Positions 36,301-63,610 of a stretch of 64,000 nucleotides of DNA are shown piece after piece. The notes under the pieces are model-generated. The model made no database searches, was not told the DNA's origin, and worked only from the letters and a program-made list of their open reading frames with translations. A program made the translations under genes and the position numbers. How positions within the stretch are numbered: position 1 is the first letter of the stretch; every line of letters starts with the position of its first letter. This DNA is from Owenia fusiformis (taxonomy: Eukaryota; Annelida; Polychaeta; Sabellida; Oweniidae), in contig CAIIXF020000008.1 of NCBI GenBank assembly GCA_903813345.2, positions 17,282,822 to 17,346,821 of the forward strand, given 5' to 3'.

Positions 36301-39300
36301 AAGAGGTATAGGTGCAGAACAATTACATATTTCAAAAATGGAACAATGTAAAGGTGGGATAGTTGAAAAATAGCTGCAGTACCATTGGAGAGTGACTATC
36401 TCTTCATGTTTTTAGTTTTTATCCATTTTTTACCCATTAGAACTTTTGAAAGAATCGGTGGATACAAAAAAAGTTCAATGTCTGGAAAGAATTCTTATAT
36501 GTAATGTTTTTAATTTTCAGTATTTTGTAAAGAAGGGTGAGGTCGATGGCAAGATGCTGAGCTCACTATTGACTGGGGTTAATAGGGCCTACCCCTATGC
36601 CAAAGGTAAACATTTGTTTAATAGGGCAATTTGTTTGCTTAAAGGTAGCAATTTGAATATATCAAATCTAAACTTCACACAATCAACCACTGTGAGATTT
36701 ACGTCAATACATGTATAATATGAAGTTTCTTCAAAAAGTTTATCTTGAAGTTTTCATTTTAAACTTCAAATACATTGTGTACCATAAATTGTGTCCGTGA
36801 TTGGTAATTAAACCCCCCACTCACCCTCCACACCCCTGAGTGAATTAACATATGCCACAATGTACATTTGATATTACAGGTGGCAAGTTGAACATAGATG
36901 AGGAACTGAACACACTGTACAAGGTTGTCCACATAGTGAACTTTAACACCAGTATACAGGCCCTTATGTTACTCTACCAGGTTATGGACTCCAAGTAAGC
37001 TACTTTACAAAATTTTGTGTCACTATGTATTTGATATTTTTGAAAATTATAACTTCAACAGATGTTTGATCACATTTAGGTTGTGATTCTCAAATTCTAT
37101 TACAAAGGTACTATTAGGCTTTTATGAGTGGTATATTAGCATACCATTAAGCGCAGCGTAGACATTTGAAGTGATTAAGATCTTGATTAATCTGAACCAA
37201 TATTTTGTAAATTTATGTACTGATTCAGTCAAAAACAGAGGAAAATAATTCAAAAACACATTTATCCATGAATAGCACATAATTAAATACTCAAAACGTA
37301 CACATTATCAAAATAAGTTTGCCGAAGTAAGTGGTAACATTAAAAAGTCTTGGTCTATCATTAATGAACTACTTGGAAAAAACAAAAAAGCTGCATTGCC
37401 ATCTAAATTCACTATAAATGGAAAGGAAACAACAGATCATGAAATCATTTCCAATGGATTTAATAATTTTTTTACCAATATTGGTAAAAATCTAGCCAAG
37501 GAGATTCCAAAATCCAAAAAATGCTTTAATGAATACCTAGCAAGAGCTCAAAAAGTTCAATCATCTATTTATCTCAAAAAGACCTCAAAAACTGAGCTTG
37601 AATTAGAAATGTGTCTTCTAAAATCTTCCTCGCCTGGACCTGATGGGATTCTACCATCACTTATTAAGTCTGCAAGACAGTTTTTAATTGATCCACTCTT
37701 GTATATATTTAACTTATCTTTTAAATCTGGTATTTTCCCAGACGCCCTCAAATTGGCCAAAGTAACACCTGTATTTAAAAAAGGTGTCACTACAAATCCT
37801 CCGAACTATAGACCAATTTCAGTTTTATCTGTATTTTCTAAATTGTTAGAAAAGCTCATGCACGCCAAACTCACTGGTTTTTTAGAACGTTTTGAAATTA
37901 TTTTTACTTATCAATTTGGATTTCAGAAATTCAACTCTACCTACATGGCCATTTTATATTTCATTGAACAAATTCGAAAATCAACTGATTTGGGGAAAAC
38001 GAGCATTGGCATAACATTAGATTTTTCCAAGGCCTTTGACACAATTAATCATGACATTTTGATACAAAAACTTGAATATTATGGCATCAGAGGAATAGCT
38101 AAGTCCTGGTTTGAAAGTTATTTAAAAGACCGCAAACAATATGTCACCATTAACAATTATGAATCTAAACAATCATCTCTAAATTGTGGTGTTCCGCAGG
38201 GCTCGGTACTTGGACCGCTATTATTTATTCTTTACATAAATGATCTGCCTTTTGTTGCCCCTAATCTAAAATTTATTATGTTTGCTGATGACACCAATCT
38301 TCTTGATAGTGATTATGATTTAAATGAACTTATGACTAGAACTAATGCAAACTTGAATTCAATAGATGACTGGATAAAAGCAAACAAACTTTCACTTAAT
38401 ATTGGCAAAACCAATGCTATTCTATTTGGACCCCAAAAAAATCAAACAAATCTGAATCTTAAAATACGCAATGAGAACATAAATTTCCGGGAAAAAATTG
38501 ACTTTCTTGGAATTATTATTGATAAAAACTTGAAATTTAAAGAGCACATAAAATCTGTTGAAACAAAGATTTCTCGCGTCATTGGTTCTCTTTATCACAT
38601 TAAACATCTACTTCAAATAGACAGTTTCAAAACTATTTACTACTCATTGATACACTCTCAATTAAATTATTGCAACATAATCTGGGGTAACACATTTAAA
38701 TCATTTTATGATCGTCTACATAAACTGCAGAAACAATTCTTAAGGCTAGCTTTAAATAAGGATAGACTTTCTCACTCCGCTCCCCTATTTAAAGATCTTA
38801 GAATATTAAATATTTTTGATGTCAACAGATATTGTACTGGTCAGTTCATGTACAAAATCTTTAATAAGCACCCCAGTCTTCCAAAAAATCTATTTCAAGA
38901 CTTGTTTGATATCAACATTAATATTCATCATCATTACACAAGACAATTGCATTATTTTCATATCCCTAAATGCTCTAAACTTTCCCTTCGCTATCTGGGT
39001 CCTAATCTTTGGAATGCTCTACCACATGATATTAAAAAATGCTCCACTCTAAATATTTTCAAATCTTCATATAAAAAACTACTCATCTATCGATAATGTA
39101 TAATACCAATATCATACTATACTGTTGATTTTATACTGGTACCCGATTTTTGTAACATTTTTACATTGTACATCCTTAGATTAATTGTTAATACCATTTT
39201 TATATACCTACATGTAACATAATATAAGTGTTTTCTTTTATATGTAGTCTAGTTGTCATTTTAATGATTTCTGTTAAACCGCAACATATACCCACTAGGG

Positions 39301-42300
39301 TGTCTAGCGGCTTGTTTTTTATAGTGTATATTATATAAGAATTATGAAATAAATAATTGAATTGAATTGAATTGAATGAAGGTACACCAGATAATCATGC
39401 AGAGTAAACGTGTGTTAGTTGAAGTGTTCCACTTTGGAGGTGTTTCACTGATAGAGGTATTCCAAATGACAGGTTTTTATGTCACCACCAAAAAGTGGTC
39501 AAAAAGGTCCTTTTTCAACCTGCTTTAAATTGACCCATTTTTTCAAAATCATCTACAAGTTCTCAGAAGTTCAAATTTGACTTTAGATTTGAGATTTCAC
39601 CTTCAATGACCTTCTCAGGGTCAAAAATTTCAGAAATTCAAAACTGACTTAAGATTGAACTTATACTATTGTGAGCAACTAGGTGGTGACATTTTGTCAT
39701 GTTAGATATACAATATCCTGAGATGCTGCATATTTGTGATTTAAGCGAGGCCATATCAGACCGTTATTATACAGCTCTCTACAGGAAGTTGATAGACCCA
39801 GGACTGAAGAACTCTTCAAAGCAGCCAATGTTCCTCAACTTGCTCTATAAGAGTCTAAAGAAGGATATTTCAGAGAAGCGATTAGTGGTGAGTTATTATG
39901 GGTCCGTGGGGATGGTGGCTGCAGGTTTCCATCACAAATCAGGTCAAATTTTCTCCTTTACTTGAAATGTCAAGAGTTTTAAGTACCCGAACGTTGATTA
40001 TTTAAGATTCTATGAGAATTCATCCAAAACTTGTGTTATACTTTGTTCATGTAACAAGATTGTATGCTATTGAAAATCTTACGCCATGTCAAAAGGATGA
40101 CATGTTTACATATTTTGACCAAAATAGGTAAAACTGGGATTTAACACATTGTTGAGAAAAACGTTCGGAGATCGCCAACTTGTTAAAAGGATGAAATATC
40201 TTTATATATCAATAATATTGGTAAGATTTGGATTTAGCAGACTGTTGAACAAAAACCTTGGAGGAGCACTGATATATTTCCCCAATCTGACAAATTAATG
40301 CAGGTACTTGATGCAGTTTACTTTAAGTGTGTGTTTCTTTCAGGCATTTATCAAGCGCTTGCTGCAAGTGTGTGCAATCCAGACCCCATCATTCATATGT
40401 GGGGCATTACTTCTACTCTCTGAGGTGCTAACCAGCAAGAAAGGCATAGTCTCTGTTGAACAAGTGGGGGAGGTAGGCACTTGACATTACAACTTGTATA
40501 TCTATGAAGGTTGAATGAATAAATTGAATTGAATTAAAGCGATGACTAACATCCAGATGATAAAAGTACATAGAACATTGAGATACTTGAAATTTTGAAT
40601 TCAGTTTACATGAAATTTTGAATTCAGTTTACAAAAAATTTTGAATTCAGTTTACATGAAGTTTTGAATTCAGTTTACATGAAATTTTGAAGCCTTTTTT
40701 GTTTACATTTTCATGCCCTTCAGTGACATCCTATTTTGATACCCTTTGTTGACATGCTATTTTGATGCCCTTCATTTGATGTCATTTTTGCTTCAGGAGT
40801 CTGACGAGGAAGAACATTTCCATGATGCTCCAGATGACACTAAATACAACAGTGATAGTGATGATGATGTCAAACCTGACATCAAACCTGACATCACTGG
40901 GGGTGTCAGTCAACATACACCTTCATGGGTACACAGAAATAATTATGCAGGTAAGATAAATTTTATGTAGGTCAATGCAATAAAAATTGTTCCATACCTA
41001 GACTAACCCAAATGAGTTTGTTAAGTGTATCAGGGACAATGTTTCAATGTTGTCCCATAACACATACTATAATATAATTAATAATGCATTTTTTCAGTTC
41101 AATCTCTTTGCCCTTGAAATATAATAGACTTTTACCCTCTCCCCAAATATAACTAGAAATGATGTTTATAGGCATAAATCAATATACATTATTGTCCCTT
41201 AGTTCTTCAAAGACAAAATATGCAGTTCATTTACACATTAATTGTACTGTTCTTTGTTCATATTGTGCTATTTTGTATGGTGCAGACATCTCCTTGACTA
41301 CAGTTTGGGTATTTCTCCATTAAACTCTCCACCCTTGTTGGAACCAACTTTGTTAGTACATCATCTGGGAACCACATGGGATTTCCTTTTATACACTCCC
41401 ACGTCATATTACTCAGTGGTAACCCCCAGAACTCAAACAAAACTCTGAGGTCCAAACCAACAGCTTTACTGAACTCCACGTACCATCTGTCTAGCTTGCT
41501 CTCTGTTGTGTTTGGTAGCTCTGAGTTAGACATTGCCTCATAAACTGCAAACACCCGTCTATAGGGACCCCAACCAAAATGATGGGCCAGTTGTATGTAA
41601 ATACCTAAGGCAACGAATGGTTGTTTTTTCCATTCAGCAAAGTCGGGGCCATTCTCAATATATGCTTTGATTTTCTGTTTCCTGTTGTGTGCTATGATTG
41701 CATCGCTGTCTATAGGTTTTATACCACATAGTTTATCCATGGCGTGTACTGTGAATATGTTGCATGTCACCTCTCCTGTGCCTTGAAAAAGATAACTTTT
41801 TGAATTTAAAAATGCAACAAACTATGAATATAAGAATCATTAAAGATTCCCTGTATGATAAAATCACAGAGGCAATTAAGCTGCTGTTCTAATAGTAGAC
41901 ATTGAATCGCAGATTTCTTTAATGTTCTTAAAAATACACAAAACATGTACCTTCAAAAGTCCATGCTTTCCTCTGCATGTTATGACCCAGCTCATGGAAT
42001 AATCCCCAGGACCCATTGGTGACCAGCTGGGGGAGGTTGAACAAGAATTTGTCACTTTTAGGCTCACCGACATCCAACATGGTAACTATGGGGTATCCAG
42101 CATGCATGTACCCAGCACTAGGTTGAATATCACATACGACTCGCTCTCTCCGTTGTTCCCCAGGATTGGTTGTGCGTAGTTCATGGTGAGCTTCTACAAC
42201 CGAGTCCCAGTATTTTATGACTTCACCAGGGTCATCTATGTGTCTAACTGACTCTGCCGGGAGAGTGAATATGATGTATTTTCCAGCAATCTCCGCCCAG

Positions 42301-45300
42301 ACGCCAGGGGAGTGACGTCTTAACTGCCAACTTTCGTATGTTGATATCTCCGCTTTGGTGATGTCATAATATGGAGCAGGAAGAACATTTTGTATGGACA
42401 CCTTTAGGTTCGATCCCGTTATGTTTGGACTTCGGAAATAAACCAAACCACCAAATGGTGAAACAAATGTCAGTGTTTTCCCTTTGAGTGGTCTACTTAT
42501 AGCAACCATGGGGTATCTTTTCCATTCATCCTTCCTTTTAATGTTATCACTGTGGGCCCCAATCTGGACACTCCACAGATGGCTCTGATGGTTGTGCCCT
42601 ATGACAGTAATTTGAATCTGCCCACCAGCTGGTAGATAGAAGCCCGTAGAGTGGAGCTCGGTGAACCTAGCAACAAACTGCATTGTGATTGGCTGCTGGG
42701 TTGGAAACATACAGGAAATGAAGTCTCCGGGAAAATGCTTGACCCCCAGTGATTTGTGACCCACTTCTAAATCTGCATGTTGGTAAATGGACGATAGTAT
42801 TTCCAGATATTCTTTTTCTTTTGGACATTTTGTAGATTTTCCACATATTGCACCAGTTTGTCCTAACATTTCTGTGTGTGACACAATTGTCTGTTGTATG
42901 CGCTCTTTCAATGTATTTTGATGATGTAGCGGAAGCATATTTGCGTGCTTCATGAATGAAGTGCATGTAGGAGTCGACAATCCAGCCAAGCAAATGTGGA
43001 ATAGATGGGCCTCGTCATGTTTCGATTCTGCAGTGTTAATCTTCCCATCCTGAAGTTTGACAGAATCGCTTGTAAAACTCAGACCAGCTTTTGAAATTAT
43101 TTGAGCAACATGCATGTCCTGAAGCTGTGAGTGTAGGTGCTGTTGTAACCACCCCCATGGACACACCCCAATGATAAGCCCCACTCCCTCATCAAACACA
43201 CGCTCCTCTACTGCTGTCATTACATTTTGAACATTGTTCTTTACTTCACCACCTTGTGATATGAGAACATCTGCCTGTTTGATGTCATCAGTGGTAGTAT
43301 TTTTATCTATTTTAACCACTTCTGAAGATGTTCCCTCTTGGCTCACCCACCTAGAAGTATCAGACACATTTCCTTGTTGGTTATTCTATGAAATTTGCAA
43401 AATTACTGAATTGTGCAGGGGCAATTTTAGGCAAAGTTATTGTGACAATGATAAAATTGGCTTTAAAATGACCTATATTCCGACAGTTTCTGTCTGATCT
43501 GTATCTTTGATAAGATGTAGATGTTGTAAAATTATGATTTAGTCCACACCAGATCTACTCTTAATAAGTCAGAAAACATTTCATAATTTCTGAATGATAC
43601 AGCCCTGATTTGGCAAAGGATGAAAAAGAGAAAATTATTTATTATTTAACAGTCACACATTTTGAGATCTTTTATGAGTGTCTTGTCTTATAGACACTCA
43701 TCCTTAGTATATACAAATTGAAAAAAGATGAAAGCAGATATCTTGTTATATACCTGTAGATATTCTCTAACAGTTGCTTGTGTCTAGGTGTATCAGTATC
43801 ATGTCCTGCTAGAAAGGTATTGTGTGACATCACAACTATCCTTCCTCGTCCAAACTGACTTGCTGCAATAACCACCTCATGTTGTTTCCCACTGGTTAAT
43901 ATACCTTGCATTAAAAACAATTTTTGTTGAGTTAAACAAATGAACCCATTAAGTAAGACTCTGTAAGTTGGTTTAGTGCAGCATTGTTTGCTATGTATGA
44001 TTTGAGGAGAGCTATGACACATTCTTTTTTATCCCTCATCCTAAGTGACATAAATGGATACTTTCCTAGCCTGTTCGGAATGGACATTTCAAATTGGGGG
44101 CTCTTGACAAAATTGACCAATTTCCAAATAAAAGGAGACACCAAACCATGATGATAGGATTGCTAAAAATCAATATATTGATATCTGTATAAAAGATCTT
44201 TCCAAAAAGGAATATACCATATGTGAAATAACTAACAATATTGCATTAACTGATTCAGAATGAATATTTTATTTATTTAAATTGGGAACCTCTGACAAAA
44301 ATTGATACATTGCCAAATAAAAAGAAACATCGAGATAACCAAAACAGTACTTTCTATTTTAAATATCCTATAACATGTATTGTAACATACCCTCTGCATT
44401 TTCTCCATGTACTAAGATTGATCCTGGTACGGCTTTTCCAACATCAATCACATCGATTCCTCCAAGAATCTCCTTGTGCCATTTCTTTGCTTGATCAGTC
44501 ATTTCTCCAGTGATAGCAGTATAGTCACTTGTAGAATGATTCAGAAGTAAATGCATATAGTGTATTGATTTAAATGGAAGTGTAGATTTATTTGTTTCTT
44601 CTCAATAGATTCTTTTGAAACTTCATTATGTCAAAATCAATTAGGTAGAATCTCATGAGATATTAAAGATTATATGCAGCAGCTGCTTAGAGTGTTAATG
44701 ATTTGAAAATGATTTGAGATTGAACATTGAAGCCAAATGTATTAAGACTTTTGAAGAGAATTTGATGAGGCCTTTCTTGGTCATAACTCAAAACGTATTC
44801 AGTAAAATAACTTCAAATTGTAAAACTAACATATTTTACAATTTTTTGACAATATATATAAAATGGCCATCATTTTTATTGTTGAAATATCACTTTTTAT
44901 CCTATGCCAAGTAGAGTTTTAGGGAGATAAGTTGGTAAGATATATCCCGTATCCTGATTTTGAGGTTTCCATATCCTGAACCTCCATATCTCCCTCCATA
45001 TCTCCCGCTCCAGGGAATATCTTCCCGCTTCGAAAAAAAATTTGAAAAAAAGAAAAAATTAAAAAAAAGAAAAAATGTTCAAAATGTGAAAAAATAAAAA
45101 ATTGAAAAAAAGAAAAAAATAGAAAAAATTTTGAAAAAATTGAGAAAAATGTGAAAAAATTGAAAAAATAAAAAAATTGAAGCATTATTGAAAGAAAATT
45201 AGAAAACTCTACTTGGTATAGGATAAAGCAGTTATGTACGGTCGGTTTGGATATTGGGTTCATCCCTCGTGAGATATGCACATCTACCTTCGGTCCCTAT

Positions 45301-48300
45301 GGTACCTCAGGTAGATATGCATATCTCCCTCTGGATAAACCCCATATCCAAAACCTCCCAGTACATAACCCTTATTTATGTTATAAATCCAAAAGTTTTA
45401 CATTTACACAACTAAGTATATACTACCAGGTTAACATGTCTAGAATGCGCTTTCACCATTTGAGCCCAGTACCCATGGTACTATTTATTGCAAATGGTTA
45501 CAAGGAATCAAAATGTAAGCCCACTGAATGGTGCAATGTATTCTTTCATCAGATTCAAACCCCCTCCCAAAGATGAATATGTGGTGTCCAAAAATAACCT
45601 GTTAATATATTTTAAGGTGGTGTGAAGAAGGTGATTGAGCACTATGACCCTTACCATAGGAATCCCTTGTACAGCCTTGCAGACAGAGAATGTATTTGGG
45701 AACTGGAGAAATTGGAGACTCATTTCCACCCATCTGTGGCCATGTTTGCCCAGGCAGTCATGAAGGTATGAAAACAAATTAACTATACAAGCCGCTTCTA
45801 AGAGTAGACTAAACCTCAATGTTTTCTAATGGCCACCATGCTTGAATTCATTGTTTTCTTTGAATCTTCTTTTCCTTTGGATTTCTTATTTGGTGGAATA
45901 TTTTTTCTTTTAGGGGGCAAATAAGGCAGAAACATAATAAATATGTGTTTCTATGTTGTTTTTGCTCTTATATTCCAGGGAGAATCTATCCAATACACCA
46001 GTGACCCTCTACAGGATTTTACGCTCATTAAGTTCCTTGACAGATTTGTCTATAGAAATCCTAAGAAGAAATTAGCAGGTAAGAATAGGTCTGCATTAGT
46101 TCTTGGTATTCAAAAGATAACTGGATACCTGTGGTTTTAAAATCCTGTTCAACACATTTATTTGAGGCTGTGATTTGGCACTAGGTGATCTCATTAAACA
46201 AATACATTTACAGTAAAACCTGTCTACTGGAACACCTTTGGTACATCTAAAATGTGTTCTTCTTGGAAGTTGTTCCATTTATAGAGGCTCATTTAACTTT
46301 TAGTCAGTTAGTCATGGGACTGAAAAGTGTTGCACTAACAGATGTGTTCTCACTTCTAGAGATATTCCACTCTACCAGTTTCACTTTATTAGAATCACTG
46401 AAACCATTTGGACATTTAATAATCCTAATCAATTTGTAATTCCAGACTCTGTTAGTGTTATGAGACGTAAGGAGATAGATGTTAAAGGAGTTAAAGCTCT
46501 GGCAGTGAACAGTGATAAATTCCTGGAGACCACAGAGGAAAAAATACCAGTTGATGAGAAATTCTTTCACAGGTAGGAAGGGACTATTGACATTTCCTAA
46601 TTTTGGGTCAGTTTCCCCCAGATTTGAATATTTTGGTCCTCTAACTATGTTATAGAGAGTGTGGGTTGGGGGAGTACAAATATGAAGCTTGACGCAAGAC
46701 TAGTGTAATTCCCTAGCATATTGTAAGAATGATATTCAATATCAGAAATGTTTTGGTAAATAAACATAAAAAAATCATATGTTTGTCATTGCCAGTATAT
46801 AAACTAAAAAATATGCAAATAGGGCAAAGATACACATACTGTTATATATTTCAGGTACTTTAGTCAAATATAGGGCAAAGATACACATACTGTTATATAT
46901 TTCAGGTACTTTAGTCAAATATAGGGCAAAGATACACATACTGTTATATTTCAGGTACTTTAGTCAAATATAGGGCAAAGATACACATACTGTTATATAT
47001 TTTAGGTACTTTAGTCAAATATAGGGCAAAGATACACATACTGTTATATATTTTAGGTACTTTAGTCAAGTTGCTGCTAAGAAGAAGTCCAAGAAGGCAG
47101 ATGATGAGGACAGTGATGCTGGCAGTATCAGTGACGACGAGTTTGATGAATATCTAGGTACATTATACAACCACTTAATTTATATCAAAATAGACAAATA
47201 CAGTGAAACATGCCTCCTTGTGGACATGATGTTATTCAAAAACGAGTTGTTTCAGTGTGGAAATATGATTAACTTATTGCAGTTTTCTGAAACTTTTTCA
47301 GTTTTGTATATGATAATTTGTGTGTCACCCATTATGTGCTCATTTGCAGTACCTACTGAAAAGATATTAGCAAAACCAGGGATTCGACTATTGTATGGTG
47401 AATGCAAGAAATGTTTTTATTTCAAAATCAGAAATTGTAATTTTATTATGTAATCATTGATGTACTCGAATTAATAAGTTGGTACAATGTGTTTCTTTCA
47501 GGGAATCTAGAACAGAATGTTGATGAGAGAGGGGACATGCTTGGTGATCTAGGATATGATTTTGCAAGGTCAGCAAATTTAATTTTTGTTGGTGCTTGAT
47601 ACTTACAAGATGGCAAATCTAAATTGTTCATGTTTTACCTTTGGTAAATTTGATTTGAAACCGAAAAAATTAAATTCTGTGTATCTATCTGTCTCATCAA
47701 TGGGATTGAACCCACGAAAAAACTGTTTCCTGCAAACTTCTTTTCAAATACATTACATGATACAACCATGAACTATGTATATAATTGTTGTAAATCTACA
47801 TACTCTGCTCGTCAAATAAGTGGTATTATGAATGCATTTACCTGGAATTGCAGTGATATGGGTAAAAAGCAGAATAAAAAGAAGAGTAAAGCTAATGAGA
47901 GCAGTGATGAAGATGACGACGAGATTGATGAAGATGATGCCTCTGACCTTGAAGATGATGATTTATCAGAGGAGGAACCTGACTTTGGAGATGGTGACTT
48001 TGGAGATGCATTTGCCTCAGATGCTAGTGATGAGGATGGCAAAAATGATGTTGAATTTGATGAGGAAGATGTTGCCTTTTCCGATGATGATGGTAAATTT
48101 TTGAAATCAAATTTATAATTTTTCCAGTGATGCATATTGAAAAAGAATGATTGCAAAATGAAACAATATAGTATATTACATAAGGGGTGCTATTTTCTGT
48201 CCAGGCAACACAAGAATCTTTGTTCTGATCCTAGAAAACAATGTAATGTTTTCAAATTTATTGACCCATATTAATTGATTTCCATCCATGAGCCATATAT

Positions 48301-49742
48301 AAGACTTGTCATCAATATGTTTAGTATGGAGAGCCATGTACACTTGCTTCGAAGCTACTCAAGAACACCAGTTGTTCCATGCTTTGGGGAAAGTCCTCGG
48401 ACCTAGGCCAGAAAGTGGTGGGGATGAGAATCCCTCCTCTGTGTCCGTTGTTCAATGAATTAGCCTAAGACATTGCAGAATGGAGGCTTGAGCAGGATGT
48501 GGTGATTGTCGTATCAAAGTTATGCAAGTGGTGTGGCATTGCTACACAAACTCGACGGGGCTTACTCATATGAATCTCCATTTTGATTTTTTTTATGTCA
48601 ACACCAAGAAAGGGCAACTTATTGGCAACTTATTGTTATAGCAACTGTTTTTTTGTGAAAGGCATCAGTGTTTGATGTTTGCATAAGGAGTTAGTGTCCA
48701 GGTGATGACATTTTATTATGTGAATTCCTTTCTTATCTGCCCAAATTGTAATTTTAGATGAGCTCGGAGAGGTTGACTTTAGCAAGGACAAGAAAGCAAA
48801 GAAGAGATCTCAAGAAGGCCCCTTAGAATCAATGAGAGGGAAGAAAAGAAAAAGGTATAAAATATTGTGAATTGAATTGATTATTTACAGTAATGGGGCT
48901 GGACTATTTGTTCTTTTTTAAAGATATTCAAAAAGAATTGATGTATTAATTATTTACAGTGATGGGGCTGGACTATTTGCTGCTGCGGAGGAATTCGCAG
49001 ATATGATGGATGATAATGCTGGTGCCAAGTTTGACATGGGAGGTGGAGATGCCATGTCCAATAAAGACAATGCCAGTAAGCAATGTTTTGAGTTTCAAAA
49101 TCAAAATACATGAATAGGGTGTTCCTATTTTCTCAGATCAAGATGGAGTTTCACCCAGTTGGTCTTTGGTAAAGAAAAGCAAGCCTCAGCCAAACTCGTT
49201 GATGATTAGACCTCCCCCCGCCAAATTTTCTGACGCACAATCACTAACATGATAAGTAATAGTTGGTAAAAATAGTTGGAAAATTAAGAAAGTGTAATTT
49301 TGAGGAAAAGTGAAACATTCTATACATGTAACTTCAAACCACTGATGATTACTAGTAATTGATTATCCCATTTTCTGAACCACTATATGGAGAGAATAGA
49401 TGCTGTAGTGGGTATGGAATTGAAAACTATCACATGTTCATTTGGGCAAAATCTTCAGAGCCCAAATGGGTTTCATCCACGAAGTTCGATATTGTATTTT
49501 GAAAAGTAATTGAAATTCACTGTACTATGCCTGTCATAAGGCTATATTATTTTAACTGCTGTTCCTGTGTCTGTGATTTATTCCAATATGTGTCTGTCTG
49601 TGTGTCTGCAGGTGCTAAGCAACTGAAGTGGGAGCTAGAGAGAGACAGGAAAATGAGGGGAGCTGATTGGAGGCAGAAGAAAAGATCCAAGAAACCATTC
49701 AGACCTGGACAGAAAAAACAACAGAAAGGAAAGCGAAGATGA
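27393..49742 (+). CDS. CEBPZ: CEBPZ / NOC1, ribosome biogenesis protein, 26 exons
   Basis: Nucleolar HEAT-repeat/CBF-MAK21 family protein; its yeast counterpart Noc1 works with Noc2 in early 60S assembly. Exons: 27393-27485, 29406-29501, 29788-29846, 30433-30530, 30836-31047, 31447-31555, 31889-32077, 32968-33207, 34661-34704, 35230-35314, 35491-35575, 35979-36075, 36521-36605, 36880-36994, 39746-39887, 40344-40472, 40797-40950, 45617-45765, 45979-46078, 46446-46572, 47057-47157, 47502-47568, 47854-48092, 48758-48854, 48960-49075, 49612-49742. They total 3159 bases, in phase throughout, 1052 residues (human about 1054). Recognised blocks: [10 protein letters not shown] (about 250), [17 protein letters not shown] (about 320), [11 protein letters not shown] (about 485), [19 protein letters not shown] and [20 protein letters not shown] bounding the CBF/MAK21 region (about 538-755), an acidic tail (860-935) and a basic C-terminus. 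Intron 17 contains an antisense gene. Confidence 0.96.
27486..29405. other. CEBPZ intron 1
   Basis: No gene seen. Two CAACAGGC dispersed repeats sit back to back at 28178-28447. A minus-strand open frame at 27836-28240 shows no family features. Confidence 0.6.
28178..28447. repeat. Two adjacent CAACAGGC dispersed repeats
   Basis: Both copies begin CAGGGGTTTCACTAGAATTT (about 28178 and 28324) and end in CGCCTGTTG or CACCTGTTG. Same family as 14286-14460. Confidence 0.7.
33353..34545. mobile_element. Palindromic DNA transposon (host of a nested element)
   Basis: Terminal sequences GAGGGAAATTAGCGCAACAG and CTGTTGCGCTAACTTCCCTC begin long inverted arms. The arms run 33353-33441 plus 33922-34140 on the left and about 34258-34545 on the right; the left arm is split by the element at 33442-33921. 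Located in CEBPZ intron 8. Confidence 0.8.
33442..33921. mobile_element. 480-bp MITE nested in another palindrome, TTA-flanked
   Basis: Ends GGGGCGGGGTCAAAATATC and GATATTTTGACCCCGCCCC, flanked by TTA on both sides (33439-33441 and 33922-33924). A TTA duplication with G-rich ends is what PIF/Harbinger elements produce. The uninterrupted arm on the right of the host palindrome shows the empty-site sequence (TTAGGCC), which supports the insertion. Confidence 0.8.
37240..39379 (+). mobile_element. 5'-truncated non-LTR retrotransposon (LINE)
   Basis: Reverse-transcriptase body followed by about 280 bases of 3' sequence ending in a short tandem tail of ATTGA units (about 39355-39378), as in LINEs that end in a microsatellite rather than poly-A. 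The endonuclease part is missing. The 5' border is approximate. It sits sense to CEBPZ in intron 14. Confidence 0.85.
37276..39096 (+). CDS. LINE reverse transcriptase, 5'-truncated but open
   Basis: One frame of about 606 codons with no stop, starting just after an in-frame TAG at 37273. No reliable initiator is visible, so this is the 3' part of a longer polyprotein ORF. Motifs in order: [22 protein letters not shown] with [52 protein letters not shown], catalytic FADD (38281-38292), then the thumb region [20 protein letters not shown] and a C-terminal LNYCNIIWG block. The order and wording are those of the CR1/L2/jockey group; I cannot separate these by eye. The lack of stops implies recent insertion. 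Confidence 0.88.
   Translation, partial: HIIKYSKRTHYQNKFAEVSGNIKKSWSIINELLGKNKKAALPSKFTINGKETTDHEIISNGFNNFFTNIGKNLAKEIPKSKKCFNEYLARAQKVQSSIYLKKTSKTELELEMCLLKSSSPGPDGILPSLIKSARQFLIDPLLYIFNLSFKSGIFPDALKLAKVTPVFKKGVTTNPPNYRPISVLSVFSKLLEKLMHAKLTGFLERFEIIFTYQFGFQKFNSTYMAILYFIEQIRKSTDLGKTSIGITLDFSKAFDTINHDILIQKLEYYGIRGIAKSWFESYLKDRKQYVTINNYESKQSSLNCGVPQGSVLGPLLFILYINDLPFVAPNLKFIMFADDTNLLDSDYDLNELMTRTNANLNSIDDWIKANKLSLNIGKTNAILFGPQKNQTNLNLKIRNENINFREKIDFLGIIIDKNLKFKEHIKSVETKISRVIGSLYHIKHLLQIDSFKTIYYSLIHSQLNYCNIIWGNTFKSFYDRLHKLQKQFLRLALNKDRLSHSAPLFKDLRILNIFDVNRYCTGQFMYKIFNKHPSLPKNLFQDLFDININIHHHYTRQLHYFHIPKCSKLSLRYLGPNLWNALPHDIKKCSTLNIFKSSYKKLLIYR
40589..40691. repeat. 23-base tandem repeat, 4-5 copies
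   Basis: GAAATTTTGAATTCAGTTT ACAT units in CEBPZ intron 16. Confidence 0.85.
41258..44556 (-). CDS. TCAF-like M60 metallopeptidase, nested in CEBPZ intron 17
   Basis: Four exons in phase: 44556-44391, 43904-43754, 43350-41951, 41781-41258; 2241 bases, 746 residues. The N-terminal part ([24 protein letters not shown], split over two lines of evidence: residues about 62-85) and the large exon resemble vertebrate TRPM8-channel-associated factors. The core is a peptidase M60 domain: the HEXXH zinc motif HELGH is at 41996-41982 (about residue 557), and the glutamate in GEVTCN just after the next splice junction fits the third zinc ligand. From memory, human TCAF1 has lost the second histidine, so this protein looks catalytically able where the vertebrate one is not. 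No signal peptide is apparent. The ATG at 44556 is the first in frame; an upstream exon is possible. The frame start near 43367 is GTG and internal. Substrate unknown; M60 enzymes typically act on mucin-like glycoproteins. Confidence 0.82.
44897..45229. mobile_element. MITE with A-rich interior
   Basis: ATCCTATGCCAAGTAGAGTT near 44897-44920 is inverted at about 45207-45227 (ACTCTACTTGGTATAGGAT). The interior (45030-45190) is mostly GAAAAAA runs. A similar end sequence is seen near 21490. Confidence 0.65.
46821..47056 (+). repeat. Tandemly duplicated 3' splice site of CEBPZ exon 21
   Basis: Five units of 49-51 bases start with AGGGCAAAGATACACATACT (46821, 46872, 46923, 46972, 47023). The first four each contain a complete acceptor (tttcag or ttttag) plus the exon's first 14 bases GTACTTTAGTCAA. 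The fifth runs into the real exon at 47057. Use of any earlier acceptor would read six codons and stop at TAG. Confidence 0.88.
48881..48910 (+). repeat. Duplicated 3' splice site of CEBPZ exon 25
   Basis: TTATTTACAG followed by TAATGGGGCTGGACTATTTG repeats, with one change, the real acceptor and exon start 69 bases downstream (48950-48979). Use of the upstream acceptor would hit TAA after ten further codons. Confidence 0.82.
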
Positions 49743-53127: not shown

Positions 53128-56100
53128 TTACTTCTTTGGTGAATCTAAGCTATCATAAGGGTGCCTTGGTTGGGTCAAATGACTCGAAGGAGAGAACATC
53201 CCAGCAGGCATTCCAGGGAATAACCCGGGGTGGCTTACAGGAGGCATACCTGGTATCCCATAAGGATTCAAACCAGGGAGGCCCATATATGGGAGCATTG
53301 GCATTTGTGGTGATAGGCCCATGGGATATGGCATGCCTGGTCGTGTCATCATCATAGGAAGGCCACCAAATCCAAAGGCTCCGGGCATCATCTGAGCAAT
53401 TCTCTCATCTGCTATAGCTTGAGCCTCTGCTAGTGACATCTTAGGGAGAGGTTTCTCTTTATCACCAGAGGTCTCTCCATTCTTCACTTCTTCTCCAGGA
53501 GATTTTGGGTTGCTAGGGCGACCAGCCAAAGGAGCTTGCATGTGATTCCCAACATGCCCCATTCTAGATATATCAGCATCTGAGTGACGTCTCTCCTGTG
53601 TTAGGAAACCCCTTTCTTGGGCTGAATATGGATGCGCTTGTTCCCTTGGGGGAACTCCCCTTTCCTGGTGGGAATCCCTTGTGTGTAACTCTCTAGGGAT
53701 AAAGGATTTTTCTTTGGGTGACTCCCTATTCCTTTCATGGGGTGGTTCATTATGTGGAAAATGCCTATCTTTGGGCAATTCACGAGAGAGAAATGCTTCT
53801 GAGTGGCGTCGGCCTTGTTCGCTCATATGCAATAACCTGTCTCTAGGGTCAAGGGTCGGGCTGCCACTATGGGCAGGTCTTGGGTGGCACAATGCCGGGT
53901 GCTTAATATCTGGATTGCCATCCCTACTTGACATAGGACTTCCACTATGAGCTGGTCTTGGTAGCCCTGGGAGTTTCCTCTCCTGGGGTGCATCCCTTGG
54001 GAGATACAACAGCTCCCTGGGGTCAGACCGCATTGGACTTCCACTATGGGCAGGCCTGGGTGGTAGAATAGAGGGATAGATATCCCTGGGGGGCACTCTA
54101 TCATCCCTAGGGGGCACTCTATCATCCCTAGGGGGAGCTGTATGGTGATGAACATCCCTATTTGCTTCAGAGAAAATATGAACACTATTCATCATTGGAT
54201 TATGGGAAGGTTTCGATATCCCAGCTGTGGGTAAATTCTTATCCATATCTCTACAGGGAGACCCCTGAACCCTTGATTCCCCTTGGATGTTATTATGTGG
54301 TTTGGGATCAAGCCTAGGAGGCGAACTTGATTTACTAATGTTTGGAGTCCCTATGAGACTTGCAACAGAGAAGCCACCAAGGGATGCACTGGGTTGACTT
54401 GGCTTGGCATAAGATGAGCCTCGGATTGTCATATTAATGGGAGAATCCTGCGTTGAACCGTGTTTCTCCGGATCAAATTTATCACTCGAATTACTGTCTG
54501 AATAAGGAACCTGTCCAAACCTCTTTTTCAACATTTCTAATCCAGGTTGGGTTGTACCTTGAATCTCTGATGAATCCCTGTGTTTCACTAGGGGAGGGGG
54601 ATTTGGCAACTGGGTGGCATTATTCACTTGTTTAGGGTCTGGGATCAGAGGGGGTGGTATCCCTGCTCCTTGATTTTGATCAGATGCTTCCGTTTCATTC
54701 TTTATTGAATGTTCTTGACTATGCATATTTGTATTAGAAACTTCAGGTGTCTCATGCTTCAACTTTACTGACAAATCAATACCAGGTGCTATAGTGCTTT
54801 CAGGTGGTCTAGAAACATCTAAGTCCATAGGAGAATGCTCCCTATTCTGTCCATAGATTTCCTCCTTTGGGAGGATACTCCCTGGGAGAAGGGTGTCTGA
54901 AACTTTACCTCCACTCACTCCTTGGAAAGGAGGTCCCTCTGCATTCCCATGCTGCACTTCTAACCCGCCCACAGATGTAACATTTAGAGTTTTATTATGC
55001 TTTGATTGTGGCGATAACATTGTAGGTCCTGAGTTGTTCTGAATATAGGCCTCCAAAGGTTTGTACTGCGTATAAGGGGTCCCTGGAGGCGAGGCAGACG
55101 GCTGCCTCTGAGCAATAGAACCAGCAGCATCCATCCTAAAACACAATTAAAATATTTGAGATGTTTTTCAAATAATGGAGTTTACAAACATATTATGTTG
55201 ATTGATTGTGATTAAAAGAGGGTGGTTTGTCCAATGACATTCGAGAAATTATTTGGCCAATAGAAGCCATGAAATCTATGCACAATTTTTTTAATAGAAC
55301 AATTTAATGATTTTTGTTTGAAATGCTCAATAGATGGCTCTTATTTCAAGGGGTTTCCCTTTGGTATTCCCTTTGCAATTGTGTGGTTAGATTTTAAATC
55401 AAAAATAAATTAGAAGAAGGCATTAACATGCAAATTGTCACCACCTGCCACAGACACTGTCTGCATAAAACCAACCACTGAATACCGAACACCAACCACC
55501 GAATGCTATACATAACAAGTTTGGAGACAATAACAATATGTCAACACTTCCCAATGATCAAACCATGCAGCAATTTGTAAAATGTAGAAGGGGAGAGAAA
55601 TAGCCCATCGAGAGATGAACTGATAAAATCTTCATGAGAAGCAACAAAACCTTTAGTTTTTGAGAGGTGAGAAGAAAATTATAAACTGAATATATAAATA
55701 ACATCATTTCAAAGAGCAACATAGTGATCTACCCTTAGTCCAAGATTTCACAACGTTGCCCATTGAAATGAGGTTATTAGAATTATCACCACCTATTGTA
55801 ACTAAGTACAAACTCGCTATTCGCCCTGGGCCAGGGTGAATAATAATAACCACTATGGCTCGCACTATGCCCAAGTAACTATTGCTTAAGTTAAATAGTA
55901 AAATATAAGCCTTGTCAACTAGTACTAATACAATGAGAACAGGCCTCGCAATGTGATGATAATTAGAGTTAATATAACTCCTGCCTTTTCATCAATAAAG
56001 ACAGGCCCATAGCCAGGGGGGTTCCAGGGTTCGGGCAAACCCCCCTGGCCATAAATCATGCAGTTTTTCACCATTTTATGCACTTCTTGAGTGATTTGAG

Positions 56101-59100: not shown

Positions 59101-60031
59101 TGTTAAATTACACAACGATGAACAAAATGTTTTAGAATACAACTCCACGTTTGTAGTCATAGACTCGGCGGGGCGTAGTGGAAGGTGACGGGACGTATTA
59201 GTCAAATTTTAAGAGATGTGTGGATGATTAAGAACCTGCTGCGTTTGATGCCCAAAAATCAAAACGTAGCGATGGAAGGTTGTAATGGGAGTCCATTCTG
59301 AAATTATGAGCGAGAATGGGTAAAAGACTGGCGAGATAACTTGACTTACAGTTGAAAGTTATGAAAATTTGCTTTATCTCGCAGCTGGGGACCAAAACGC
59401 CGCTAAAACGAGGTACTTTGTACACGAAAACAATGTATCGACTGAAAGGTATTTCTGTGAAGCTTTGTACGGAACAAGTTTGAAGAAAAACGGTGAAGTG
59501 TGAGACTCACAATCCTTGATTTTCAAACACTGGGGTAGGTTTTAAATTCAAATTAACGGTTTTTTCGGGACGGAGTGGTTTCGATTCGTCCCGAAGAGAT
59601 ACTACCGCGTGTATACATGTACAGTAAAACCTGTTATCATAATCTGAACACCTTTTAAATATGAACATCTTTTTCGGTCCAATTCTTTAATCCGCCAGAC
59701 TTCCATGATAAATAAATCTTGATATATGATCATCTGTCAATCTGATCACTTTCCACCCGTTCCAATAGCATTCAGATGAGTCAAGTTTTACAATACTCAT
59801 GAATCATTCATTCACCACATAAAAATCAAAAGATCTCACCTTCCAGGTCCTTTTTTAGCTCCAGAATTGTGAGATTTGTTCGTGCTTGGGGGCCTCTTTG
59901 TTGACACTGATGTGCCCTCTCCACTATTACTGGCCTCTTCTTCCGCTCCCTCGTTATCAGCGACATCTTTTATGTTGGCAACCAGATCCTTGAGGAAGTC
60001 AAACTGCTTCACAGACTCTATTGTCTGCTTG
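53128..60031 (-). CDS. DRAP1: NC2-alpha (DRAP1) with long proline-rich tail, 3' part
   Basis: NC2-alpha pairs with DR1 through a histone fold, binds TBP on DNA and represses RNA polymerase II initiation. Exons in phase: 60031-59840, 57317-57263, 56465-56230, 55135-53128; about 829 residues. The first begins inside the last helix of the fold: KQTIESVKQFDFLKDLV matches the human KQCIELEQQFDFLKDLV. Next comes an acidic stretch (STESDISEEETEDESTEDE) like the human one. The last exon alone codes 668 residues of Pro/Ser/Arg/His-rich sequence, including three RPAHSGSP repeats, DDRVPPR repeats and a Met/Pro/Gly-rich end. Human DRAP1 is about 205 residues in total. The histone-fold exons are not in the window. 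An open frame continues upstream of 60031, but the ttccag acceptor and homology place the border there. Confidence 0.82.
56002..56189. mobile_element. MITE with CAGGCCCGTAGCCAGG ends, copy 2
   Basis: Same terminal repeats as 17952-18146, with exact 5-base flanks AAAGA on both sides. It lies just downstream of NC2-alpha exon 56465-56230. Confidence 0.8.
57597..59611. mobile_element. 2.0-kb palindromic element, 5-base target duplication
   Basis: Begins CACGCGGTAGTATCTC and ends GAGATACTACCGCGTG, flanked by TATAC on each side (57592-57596 and 59612-59616). Inverted arms of about 500 bases (to about 58095 and from about 59110) are nearly identical, each with an open frame beginning MYKVPRFSGVLVP. 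The 1-kb centre has no coding frame I recognise. It lies in the NC2-alpha intron between exons 59840 and 57317. Confidence 0.82.
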
Positions 60032-60621: not shown

Positions 60622-60628
60622 TATATAA
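60622..60628 (+). promoter_or_regulatory. TATA box of the intronless gene
   Basis: TATATAA 100 bases before the ATG at 60728, leaving room for a short leader of about 70 bases. Suits a compact intronless gene. Confidence 0.45.
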
Positions 60629-60727
60629 CCAAACTTTTTAAGGACTGATCATAACTGATTTGATTACTGTAGTGATCATATCAGAAATTGACAGACAAAC
60701 AACACCACTGATTCACTCAGCGACACA

Positions 60728-61192
60728 ATGGATGTACAAAGCAACATAATGGATGATGCACCTAGTGATATCATGGATTCCTATTCTATGAGAGAGTTCG
60801 AAGCCTCCAGACAGGCAGAACTTGAGAATAACAATGACCTTGACTATGCCACCATACAGCTTGATTCAGCCTACAGAAAATTTACCAAGGCATGTGATCA
60901 ACTCCTTGTCATTGATGACCAGACCAAGATGGTAGAGGTGCATTACAAGCGAGCGCAAGCTAAGGAGAACCAGAGAGAGGCTCATCGCTATTCCCTGCAT
61001 CTACAGCTATCCACACTCAGCAACATGAAGATGATGTTCTACTACTATGCTCAAGAGATGGCTGAAGTGGTCCAAGAACTGAAGACCAAAGTTCAACAGA
61101 TGGAAGCCCAAGATTCTGATGCTGAGTCTGAATATTCATTCATTGATGATGAAGAATATGATGAAGGTGAAGAGGAAGACATGGAATATTAG
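60728..61192 (+). CDS. Intronless 154-residue acidic coiled-coil protein with histone-type 3' end
   Basis: I do not recognise this protein. It is one uninterrupted frame with a good start context (cacaATGG). Residues 1-40 are acidic and Met/Asp/Ser-rich; 40-125 are charged and predicted by eye to be helical with coiled-coil character (AYRKFTKACDQLLVIDDQTK, then AEVVQELKTKVQQME); 126-154 are strongly acidic, ending EDMEY. No transmembrane segment, signal peptide or histone fold is visible. Two tandem histone-type stem-loops follow the stop within 45 bases, and a TATA box precedes it, so its mRNA is probably made in S phase without a poly-A tail. It lies antisense to, and probably inside, an upstream intron of NC2-alpha. 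Confidence 0.75.
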   Translation: MDVQSNIMDDAPSDIMDSYSMREFEASRQAELENNNDLDYATIQLDSAYRKFTKACDQLLVIDDQTKMVEVHYKRAQAKENQREAHRYSLHLQLSTLSNMKMMFYYYAQEMAEVVQELKTKVQQMEAQDSDAESEYSFIDDEEYDEGEEEDMEY

Positions 61193-61197
61193 GTGAA

Positions 61198-61213
61198 AGT
61201 CCTTTTCAGGGCT
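61198..61213 (+). terminator. First histone-type 3' stem-loop (one G-T pair)
   Basis: AGTCCT TTTC AGGGCT, a 6-base stem with one G-T pair and a TTTC loop, five bases after the stop codon of the intronless gene. Confidence 0.65.
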
Positions 61214-61219
61214 ACAAAC

Positions 61220-61235
61220 GGTCCTTTTCAGGACC
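61220..61235 (+). terminator. Canonical histone mRNA 3' stem-loop
   Basis: GGTCCT TTTC AGGACC: perfect 6-base stem and 4-base loop, preceded by ACAAAC and followed by ACCAG, as in replication-dependent histone messages. A purine-rich AAAAGAGAAA at about 61249-61258 fits the histone downstream element bound by U7 snRNA. Confidence 0.85.
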
Positions 61236-61359
61236 ACCAGATACTTTCAAAAGAGAAATTAGTGATGAATTTGTCCAGTTTTTGTTTGAACTTTGAACTG
61301 CATGTTTTATGAGGGGATATTGGCAACTTCCTTGGTTGCATAAGTGACTCCCATGGTCC

Positions 61360-61620
61360 AAAGAGAAAGCCCTTTTAAGGGCTTCAAACGGTCCTTTTCA
61401 GTACCACCAAATATTTAAAATTAAAAATGTTGATGAATTTGTCTAATTTTTTGTTTGAACTGCATGTTTTATGAATCAATCTATCACATACAATTTACAA
61501 TTTGTACTATGTAAACCTTAAAATATAAAGCATGAGGGGCTCTTGCCAACTTCCTTGATTGCCTCTGTGGCTCCTATTGTTCTTTCAGGACCACCAAATA
61601 TTTTCAAAAGAGCAATTGGT
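61360..61620 (+). repeat. Degenerate tandem copies of the stem-loop block
   Basis: A block of about 170 bases including the double stem-loop and the following TGATGAATTTGTC-TTTGAACTGCATGTTTTATGA is repeated: AGCCCT TTTA AGGGCT at 61368-61383, a mismatched GGTCCT TTTC AGTACC at about 61390-61405, and a remnant TTTCAGGACCACC at about 61579. The intervening ACTTCCTTGGTTGC is also repeated. Confidence 0.75.
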
Positions 61621-61639
61621 GGTGACACATATAAATAAA

Positions 61640-61785
61640 TATTCTGTATTTCCTATTGTTAACAGTGGTTAATAAGCCCAAGATGGGCTGGGTAAAATTG
61701 TAATTAATTGTTTTATATTTTATTGAATTGTGAGACTGACCACTATGAATAAACAAATAAACTAAACTAAACTAACTACAAATAA
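61640..61785. repeat. Dispersed repeat ending in AACTA units, copy 1
   Basis: TTTCCTATTGTTAACAGT through GATGGGCTGGGTAAAATTG to an (AACTA)n-like tail. Second copy at 63475-63610. Probably the 3' end of a SINE or LINE. Confidence 0.7.
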
Positions 61786-62289: not shown

Positions 62290-63474
62290 AGCTGAAACCG
62301 TTAAAGTTTAAGTCATTAAGATGAAAAATTCACTTTCAATTTGAGATTAAAAAGCACTGAATAATTATTCATCATTATTAAGAACTCTCATGAATATTCC
62401 GAAGGTTGAATCAATCCCGATCATTTATACAATACACTTTGTAATCACTCTATTGCATGAGACCAGCAAATAAAATGCCGACAATACATTGTTCCAGAAA
62501 AGATCACACAGAACTTGATGTATTTGACATTTAAGTGTGATAAAGTGCCACTAGTCACTAATTGAGACAATAAACATTGTTTTGTTAGCGATTTTATGCC
62601 TGCATGAACTGCTAGTATACACAATCGGTCGTGTTAACCATTTCCCTATCGATAGCGGTGCTTCCTTATATGGTGTGTAGCTAGGCATATGTATACTTCC
62701 CTCCATCATTTTGGCAACCAATAGTCCCCGTTTAAATCCCTTGCCAACCCCCAGGTGGGAGAGAGAGGAGGTACTGGTCAAATATCCACCTACATCTAGG
62801 GATTTTTTCTCTAAAGATGGACCCACATCTAGGGTTTTTCTTTGACCCACTTCGAGATAACAAAATTGAAATCCAACATTGACAGACTTTTACATGCTCT
62901 CAAATGAAAACTGCCCGTTGCCAAACTTAAAAGGAGGGAGTGTTTGTTATATGGTATGTAGCTAGGTATATTGTACTCCCACTAATATTTCAGGCTATTG
63001 CATTTCGCAATTTTGTGATTTTGAAATTCCGCGTCTATTAATTTATGCTAATTTTCTGTTTTTTGATATTTTACGGCTATTAATTTTCCCACATCCATAT
63101 AAACTTAACATTTCGTAAATGCCAGCTTTTGAAATTTCCCAGCTTTTATATTTTGCTAGTTTTCCTAACCTCATGAAAATATAAATTACAAAGTGTTCTA
63201 CAAACAAAAAGGGAAGAAAAGGTTGTATGTCCATTTTGTTATGTAGGTAGCCCTGCCATATATGTTAAGTTCCAACATTTTCTCTGTTTAAATATAACTA
63301 AATGTACCAATTTGACAAAACATAATATGACAATGAGTCAAAAAAATATCAACCAATGGGATTGAGAAAAACTTTAATATCAGCTTAAATGAGCTTATTA
63401 GCCTTTTGCAGATTATTGATGTAGATGTTGATTGATGGAGAAACATATAACTAGGTTTTTGTGTGTTAATTTTG
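62290..63474. other. No gene recognised
   Basis: AT-rich sequence. A pair of similar stretches (TTATATGGTGTGTAGCTAGG near 62668 and TTATATGGTATGTAGCTAGG near 62948) suggests another old repeat. Histone-fold codons for NC2-alpha were looked for on the minus strand and not found. Confidence 0.5.
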
Positions 63475-63610
63475 TATTTCCTATTGTTAACAGTAGTTTA
63501 TAAGTACAAGGTGGGCTGGGTAAAATTGTAATTAATTTTTTAAATATTTTTATTGAATTGTAAGACTGACCACTATAAATAAATAAATAAATAAACTAAA
63601 CTAAACTATG
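63475..63610. repeat. Dispersed repeat ending in AACTA units, copy 2
   Basis: Same order of blocks as 61640-61785, with (AAAT)n then AACTAAACTA at the end. Confidence 0.7.

Follow-up and report, generated by a model that had tools for sequence, protein, structure and literature searches.

We propose that positions 60728 to 61240 of the window, by which we mean the whole 64-kb stretch of DNA analyzed here, hold a compact, intronless, non-histone animal gene that carries the 3'-end module of a replication-dependent histone mRNA, a reading of the sequence whose chances we put at about even. In the established pathway, SLBP sits on the stem-loop, the U7 snRNA pairs with the histone downstream element (HDE), and CPSF73 cuts between the two, as described in the part of PMC7026596 available to us. 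Histone mRNAs are called the sole known mRNAs of this kind in the available sections of PMC6303110, PMC10388802, PMC7026596, and PMC2642717, and the accessible text of a 2026 preprint has them as uniquely non-polyadenylated in metazoans (PMC12803260). A non-histone gene with a complete module would break this histone-only rule. If the proposal is true, the encoded protein would become a candidate for a factor that partners histone supply during S phase, and it becomes testable whether other genes can recruit the histone 3'-processing pathway. The features on which the proposal is built are as follows.

60622 to 60627 (+): TATA box-like TATATA, some 100 nt ahead of the ATG, found in the sequence
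60728 to 61192 (+): single-exon open reading frame (ORF) for 154 aa, its 154 codons coding-like
61198 to 61213 (+): first histone-type stem-loop, SL1, AGTCCT-TTTC-AGGGCT with one G-U pair, found in the sequence and by pattern match
61214 to 61239 (+): main stem-loop, SL2, with its flanks, ACAAAC-GGTCCT-TTTC-AGGACC-ACCA, found with Rfam RF00032
61248 to 61259 (+): HDE-like purine stretch, CAAAAGAGAAAT, beginning 8 nt past the ACCA
61365 to 61474 (+): unit 2, in which the 3' end recurs in tandem in decayed form, found with RF00032 (30.5 bits) and as a DNA repeat
61532 to 61625 (+): unit 3, in which the 3' end recurs in part, clearly recognizable as a repeat at the DNA level

Judged on its sequence, the locus fits the definition of a histone-type 3' end, and its protein did not come out as a histone in any of our tests. 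An earlier note on this DNA had claimed a histone-type 3'-processing signature with a second stem-loop ahead of it and a purine-rich stretch downstream, and every one of these elements is in place. Checked against the sequence, the main stem-loop consists of ACAAAC (61214 to 61219), a perfect 6-bp stem with a 4-nt loop, GGTCCT-TTTC-AGGACC (61220 to 61235), and the tail ACCA (61236 to 61239). An Rfam scan of both strands of the 64 kb placed RF00032 (Histone3) at 61215 to 61260 (+) with 37.4 bits and an E value of 2.6e-7, exceeding the curated (gathering) cutoff of 34 bits; this match, which also takes in the ACCA tail and the purine core AAAAGAG, is one of two gathering-level Rfam matches within the window. 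A relaxed 20-nt hairpin pattern matched SL1, SL2, and nothing else in the window, whereas 100 shuffles gave a mean of 0.02 matches and never two in the same shuffle. A chance likeness to a histone 3' end is excluded for practical purposes. The main target cluster of SLBP in an eCLIP study matches RF00032, according to the available part of PMC6897289, which contains no discussion of non-histone targets.

The purine-rich stretch that had been reported downstream is AAAAGAGAAA, at 61249 to 61258. The slightly longer CAAAAGAGAAAT contains AAAGAG, the purine core named for the mouse H2a HDE (PMC7026596, in the part available), about 10 nt past the predicted cut; we infer an mRNA 3' end at about 61239 to 61240. 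The stem of SL2 begins 27 nt past the ORF stop codon, in the sense orientation. By simple arithmetic, a random site would fall in the 100 nt that follow a stop codon on its own strand about 0.4% of the time for the five ORFs of at least 150 aa and 1.4% of the time for the 18 ORFs of at least 100 aa, both counts including the 154-aa ORF. As far as the accessible text of each source goes, bdelloid histone genes have the stem-loop 40 to 80 bp past the stop codon (PMC2642717), and the replication-dependent histones of Hydractinia have a stem-loop and a purine-rich HDE with short spacers (PMC5011920).

The 6-bp stem, TTTC loop, A-rich 5' flank, ACCA, and AAAGAG are all shared with the 3' ends of replication-dependent histone mRNAs, as the apparently intronless ORF and the stem-loop near the stop codon are shared with replication-dependent histone genes. 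Here, however, the module stands behind an ORF without significant histone similarity, a second hairpin lies ahead of it, two decayed tandem copies follow it, and no histone gene was found in the 64 kb. In the literature searched, which was mostly other than subscription papers and in part available as excerpts, we found no non-histone animal gene ending in a histone stem-loop; the nearest precedent, in the part of PMC7786107 available, was a stretch of coronavirus coding sequence with a calculated RF00032 score of 14.7 bits, under the cutoff of 34.

Tandem copies of the 3' end lie downstream of the intact one (unit 1). Unit 2 is 81% identical to unit 1 and keeps an intact copy of SL1; its copy of SL2 has one broken pair, its purine core is lost, and its RF00032 score of 30.5 bits is under the cutoff of 34. 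Unit 3, with a 3-nt loop and a short stem, retains the purine stretch CAAAAGAGC and scores at noise level as Histone3 (9.9 bits; E value, 7.4). The complete and intact set of elements is found only in unit 1, which adjoins the ORF; taken alone, the intactness of this unit is suggestive. Constraint on the hairpin block was not significant in a comparison of units 1 and 2, which showed 2/26 differences in the block versus 12/64 elsewhere (Fisher P=0.34), nor was it when SL1 was added to the block (P=0.27). Pairing of unit 1 with U7 was unremarkable for human U7 (matched by 58 of 300 shuffles) and good for sea urchin U7 (3 of 300), both being foreign sequences that may differ from the U7 of the host. 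With human U7, the decayed unit 3 did better still, equaled by 1 of 300 shuffles, so unit 1 does not stand out by its pairing.

An alternative hypothesis is that the module is a relic, the 3' end left by a dispersed (orphon) histone gene that has lost its coding part, captured behind an unrelated gene that is polyadenylated further on, perhaps past 61420 or 61634. Three units stand in tandem, and neither of the two decayed ones is preceded by an ORF, so copies of the 3' end do drift here without a gene; the nonsignificant constraint between units would also fit a relic. Poly(A)-signal words are also present downstream of the hairpins, with ATTAAA at 61420, AATAAA at 61634, and others further on. 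Yet the perfect stem, the tail, and the purine core sit together in the very unit that adjoins the ORF, the sense orientation and the 27 nt to the stop codon match the layout of a histone-type gene, and the window is without a significant histone coding remnant. We regard such a capture as unlikely, though it deserves more weight than the other alternatives considered below.

The same poly(A)-signal words bear on a second alternative, in which dividing cells or the germ line would form the mRNA end at the hairpin and other cells would polyadenylate the message downstream, a scheme already put forward for H2AX and the H2A variants of bdelloids. Both kinds of signal are present here, as they are in the bdelloid H2A variants described in the available part of PMC2642717, which resemble this locus in combining a stem-loop with possible downstream poly(A) signals. 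The bdelloid genes differ in that they encode histones, whereas the 154-aa protein has no significant histone similarity. Poly(A)-signal words are, however, common in AT-rich DNA (about 65% AT), and their usage here is only putative. We consider two modes of 3'-end formation improbable for this gene.

The preferred reading, a non-histone gene with a histone-type 3' end, also requires that the ORF be a gene. The earlier note had taken it for an intronless gene, and the ORF does look real in its length and codon score and apparently intronless as the DNA reads. ORFs of this length are expected 0.05 times per simulated 64 kb (40 simulations), and none of 20,000 sequences with the ORF's own dinucleotide makeup stayed open through 154 codons. 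Its base use depends strongly on codon position, with G at 37% of first positions and A at 51% of second positions. The start is the first ATG past the TATATA sequence, with no other ATG between 60640 and the ORF; it has a Kozak-like context (ACAATGG) and an in-frame stop upstream at 60689. The TATATA by itself is weak evidence because the DNA, at about 65% AT, is AT-rich.

For a codon score, the training set was three ORFs elsewhere in the window, of which two are probably parts of one M60-peptidase gene. Taking no account of stops, this score was 0.065 in the frame of the ORF, above all 3,000 random segments drawn from sequence that excluded the ORF and the training set (highest, 0.047). Frame +2 scored 0.062 with 22 stops; because the two scores are nearly equal, the ORF frame is not distinguished by codon usage on its own. 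This failure to part the two frames when stops are left aside, together with the lack of a credible family match and of any homologue reached in the collections searched, would fit an ORF that is not a working gene, either a chance ORF or a recent pseudogene, with the hairpin as a histone fossil. The ORF length, the codon score above 3,000/3,000 segments, and the heptad pattern described below instead point to a selected protein, and we think it very improbable that the ORF is nonfunctional; that it arose by chance is, from its sequence, unlikely.

The predicted protein has a pI of 4.2 and a net charge of −23, and 15 of its last 26 residues (129 to 154) are Asp or Glu. Residues 21 to 132 are without Pro or Gly, and a heptad-patterned helix spans approximately residues 21 to 128, with 73% hydrophobic residues at positions a and d, a level reached by 4 of 20,000 shuffles. 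Among five AlphaFold models built from the single sequence, the best shows one helix from 21 to 132 with a mean pLDDT of 75 and a pTM of 0.31; the mean pLDDT of the five ranged from 49 to 75. Modeled in this way, the protein is likely a coiled coil, which bears out the description in the earlier note of an acidic, probably coiled-coil protein with an acidic tail.

No credible relative of the protein was found in Pfam, NCBIfam, or PDB sequences. Several low-scoring matches were set aside as products of helix or acidic composition: Seryl_tRNA_N (E value, 0.7) and DUF4611 (E value, 1.8) in Pfam, both far under the cutoff; Cas4 (E value, 0.0032; 17.3 bits against a cutoff of 65) and TIGR04211 (E value, 0.75) in NCBIfam; and bS21 (E value, 0.13) among PDB sequences. 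Single-protein searches, which reach close relatives, were also run on contig collections not intended for animals. In viral contigs, eight stretches matched the search pattern and none was confirmed as a homologue. One of 19 pattern matches was confirmed in genome contigs; it spans 41 residues, comes from the MAG of a rumen bacterium, and has an E value of 5e-7 counted only against candidate stretches chosen for shared words; we judged it to be chance, its identity being centered on ENNNDLDY. Exact scans of the viral contigs for histone hairpins returned none, which says little of a collection not meant for animal genomes.

The claim that the protein lacks a histone fold was supported, in that searches of Pfam and PDB sequences and tblastn with histones gave no significant histone similarity. 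When core histones and H1 were compared with the 64-kb window by tblastn, the best E value was 0.22, with no significant sign of a histone gene or coding remnant. A 21-residue H2A match inside the ORF, on the opposite strand (E value, 0.023 in a 1.6-kb search), was judged to be chance.

Proteins of the geminin family are cell cycle proteins with a coiled coil plus an acidic tail, and the 154-aa protein bears a weak likeness to them in layout and composition. We asked whether it could be a highly divergent geminin-like replication regulator, its coiled coil followed by an acidic tail, which would explain coupling to S phase. A local alignment with human geminin scores 69, a score reached by 2 of 1,000 plain shuffles and by 30 of 2,000 shuffles that keep the heptads. 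The candidate was, however, picked after the sequence had been viewed, and the score likely comes from the common coiled-coil and acidic composition. There is no significant profile or pairwise match to the family: at database scale, the E value is about 120 with phmmer and about 2,300 with BLASTP, and the Pfam scan, at E values up to 10, does not list geminin. We give this identification almost no credence.

The two hairpins may interact. SL1 begins 5 nt past the ORF stop codon and went unscored as Histone3, including in a 40-nt test stretch where the 3' part of the model was cut off. Folded alone in silico, SL2 forms the expected hairpin. Folded together with SL1, one long hairpin is favored (−18.6 kcal/mol versus −15.8 kcal/mol for two hairpins), and the closing pair of SL2 is present in 8% of the ensemble, so the SLBP site would be hidden unless co-transcriptional folding or SLBP itself stops the long hairpin. 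This predicted alternative hairpin might itself act as a switch. The minimum in silico fold of unit 2 keeps two separate hairpins, so a fold switch is no common feature of the units.

We postulate, with confidence a little under even, a fuller scheme in which this is a working non-histone animal gene, processed through SLBP and U7, with a doubled and perhaps fold-switching hairpin, whose acidic coiled-coil product is made together with histones in S phase. SLBP would bind the stem-loop and U7 snRNA would pair with the HDE; CPSF73 would then cut at about 61240, between the stem-loop and the HDE, to yield a message without poly(A), with S phase as the main time of its synthesis and translation. 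The use of the SLBP/U7 pathway by the gene, the cleavage site, and the coupling to S phase are what we infer from the module. The product would be a rod-shaped coiled coil of two or more chains that ends in an acidic tail. The function that suggests itself most readily is one alongside chromatin or freshly synthesized basic proteins, but this is no more than a guess, the acidic tail being the sole sequence support for histone handling or a chromatin role, which the earlier note had likewise offered as speculation. As to origin, an unrelated ORF may have acquired, or been put ahead of, the 3' end of a histone gene.

On the opposite strand upstream of the ORF, at about 59840 to 60031 (−), an exon-like stretch (KQTIESVKQFDFLKDLVANIKD) resembles the end of the NC2-alpha/DRAP1 histone fold. 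It matched human NC2-alpha/DRAP1 with a tblastn E value of 1e-5, and an AG and a GT resembling splice sites flank it; the likeness was not borne out by searches of Pfam and PDB sequences, and earlier DRAP1 exons were not found within the window. If the stretch is a DRAP1 exon, the 154-aa gene would lie antisense inside a DRAP1 intron.

The wider surroundings look like an animal nuclear genome. A full-length RF00030 match of 135.2 bits marks an RNase MRP RNA gene at 48329 to 48577 (+), and an acidic Ser/Asp/Glu-rich ORF (47768 to 48118) ends about 200 nt ahead of it. Two ORFs at 41258 to 43220 (−), which we take to be TCAF-like, match Peptidase M60, one of them also matching the M60 N-terminal domain. 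A 668-aa Pro/Arg/Ser-rich ORF at 53128 to 55134 (−) had no Pfam match at E values up to 0.1. A 495-aa reverse transcriptase ORF, presumably of the non-LTR type, lies at 37609 to 39096 (+) (RVT_1; E value, 7e-34). Downstream of unit 3, two copies of a repeat (61641 to 61775 and 63469 to 63604, both +) are about 90% identical and share an A-rich end, AAACTAAACTAAACT; the repeat is probably a transposon tail.
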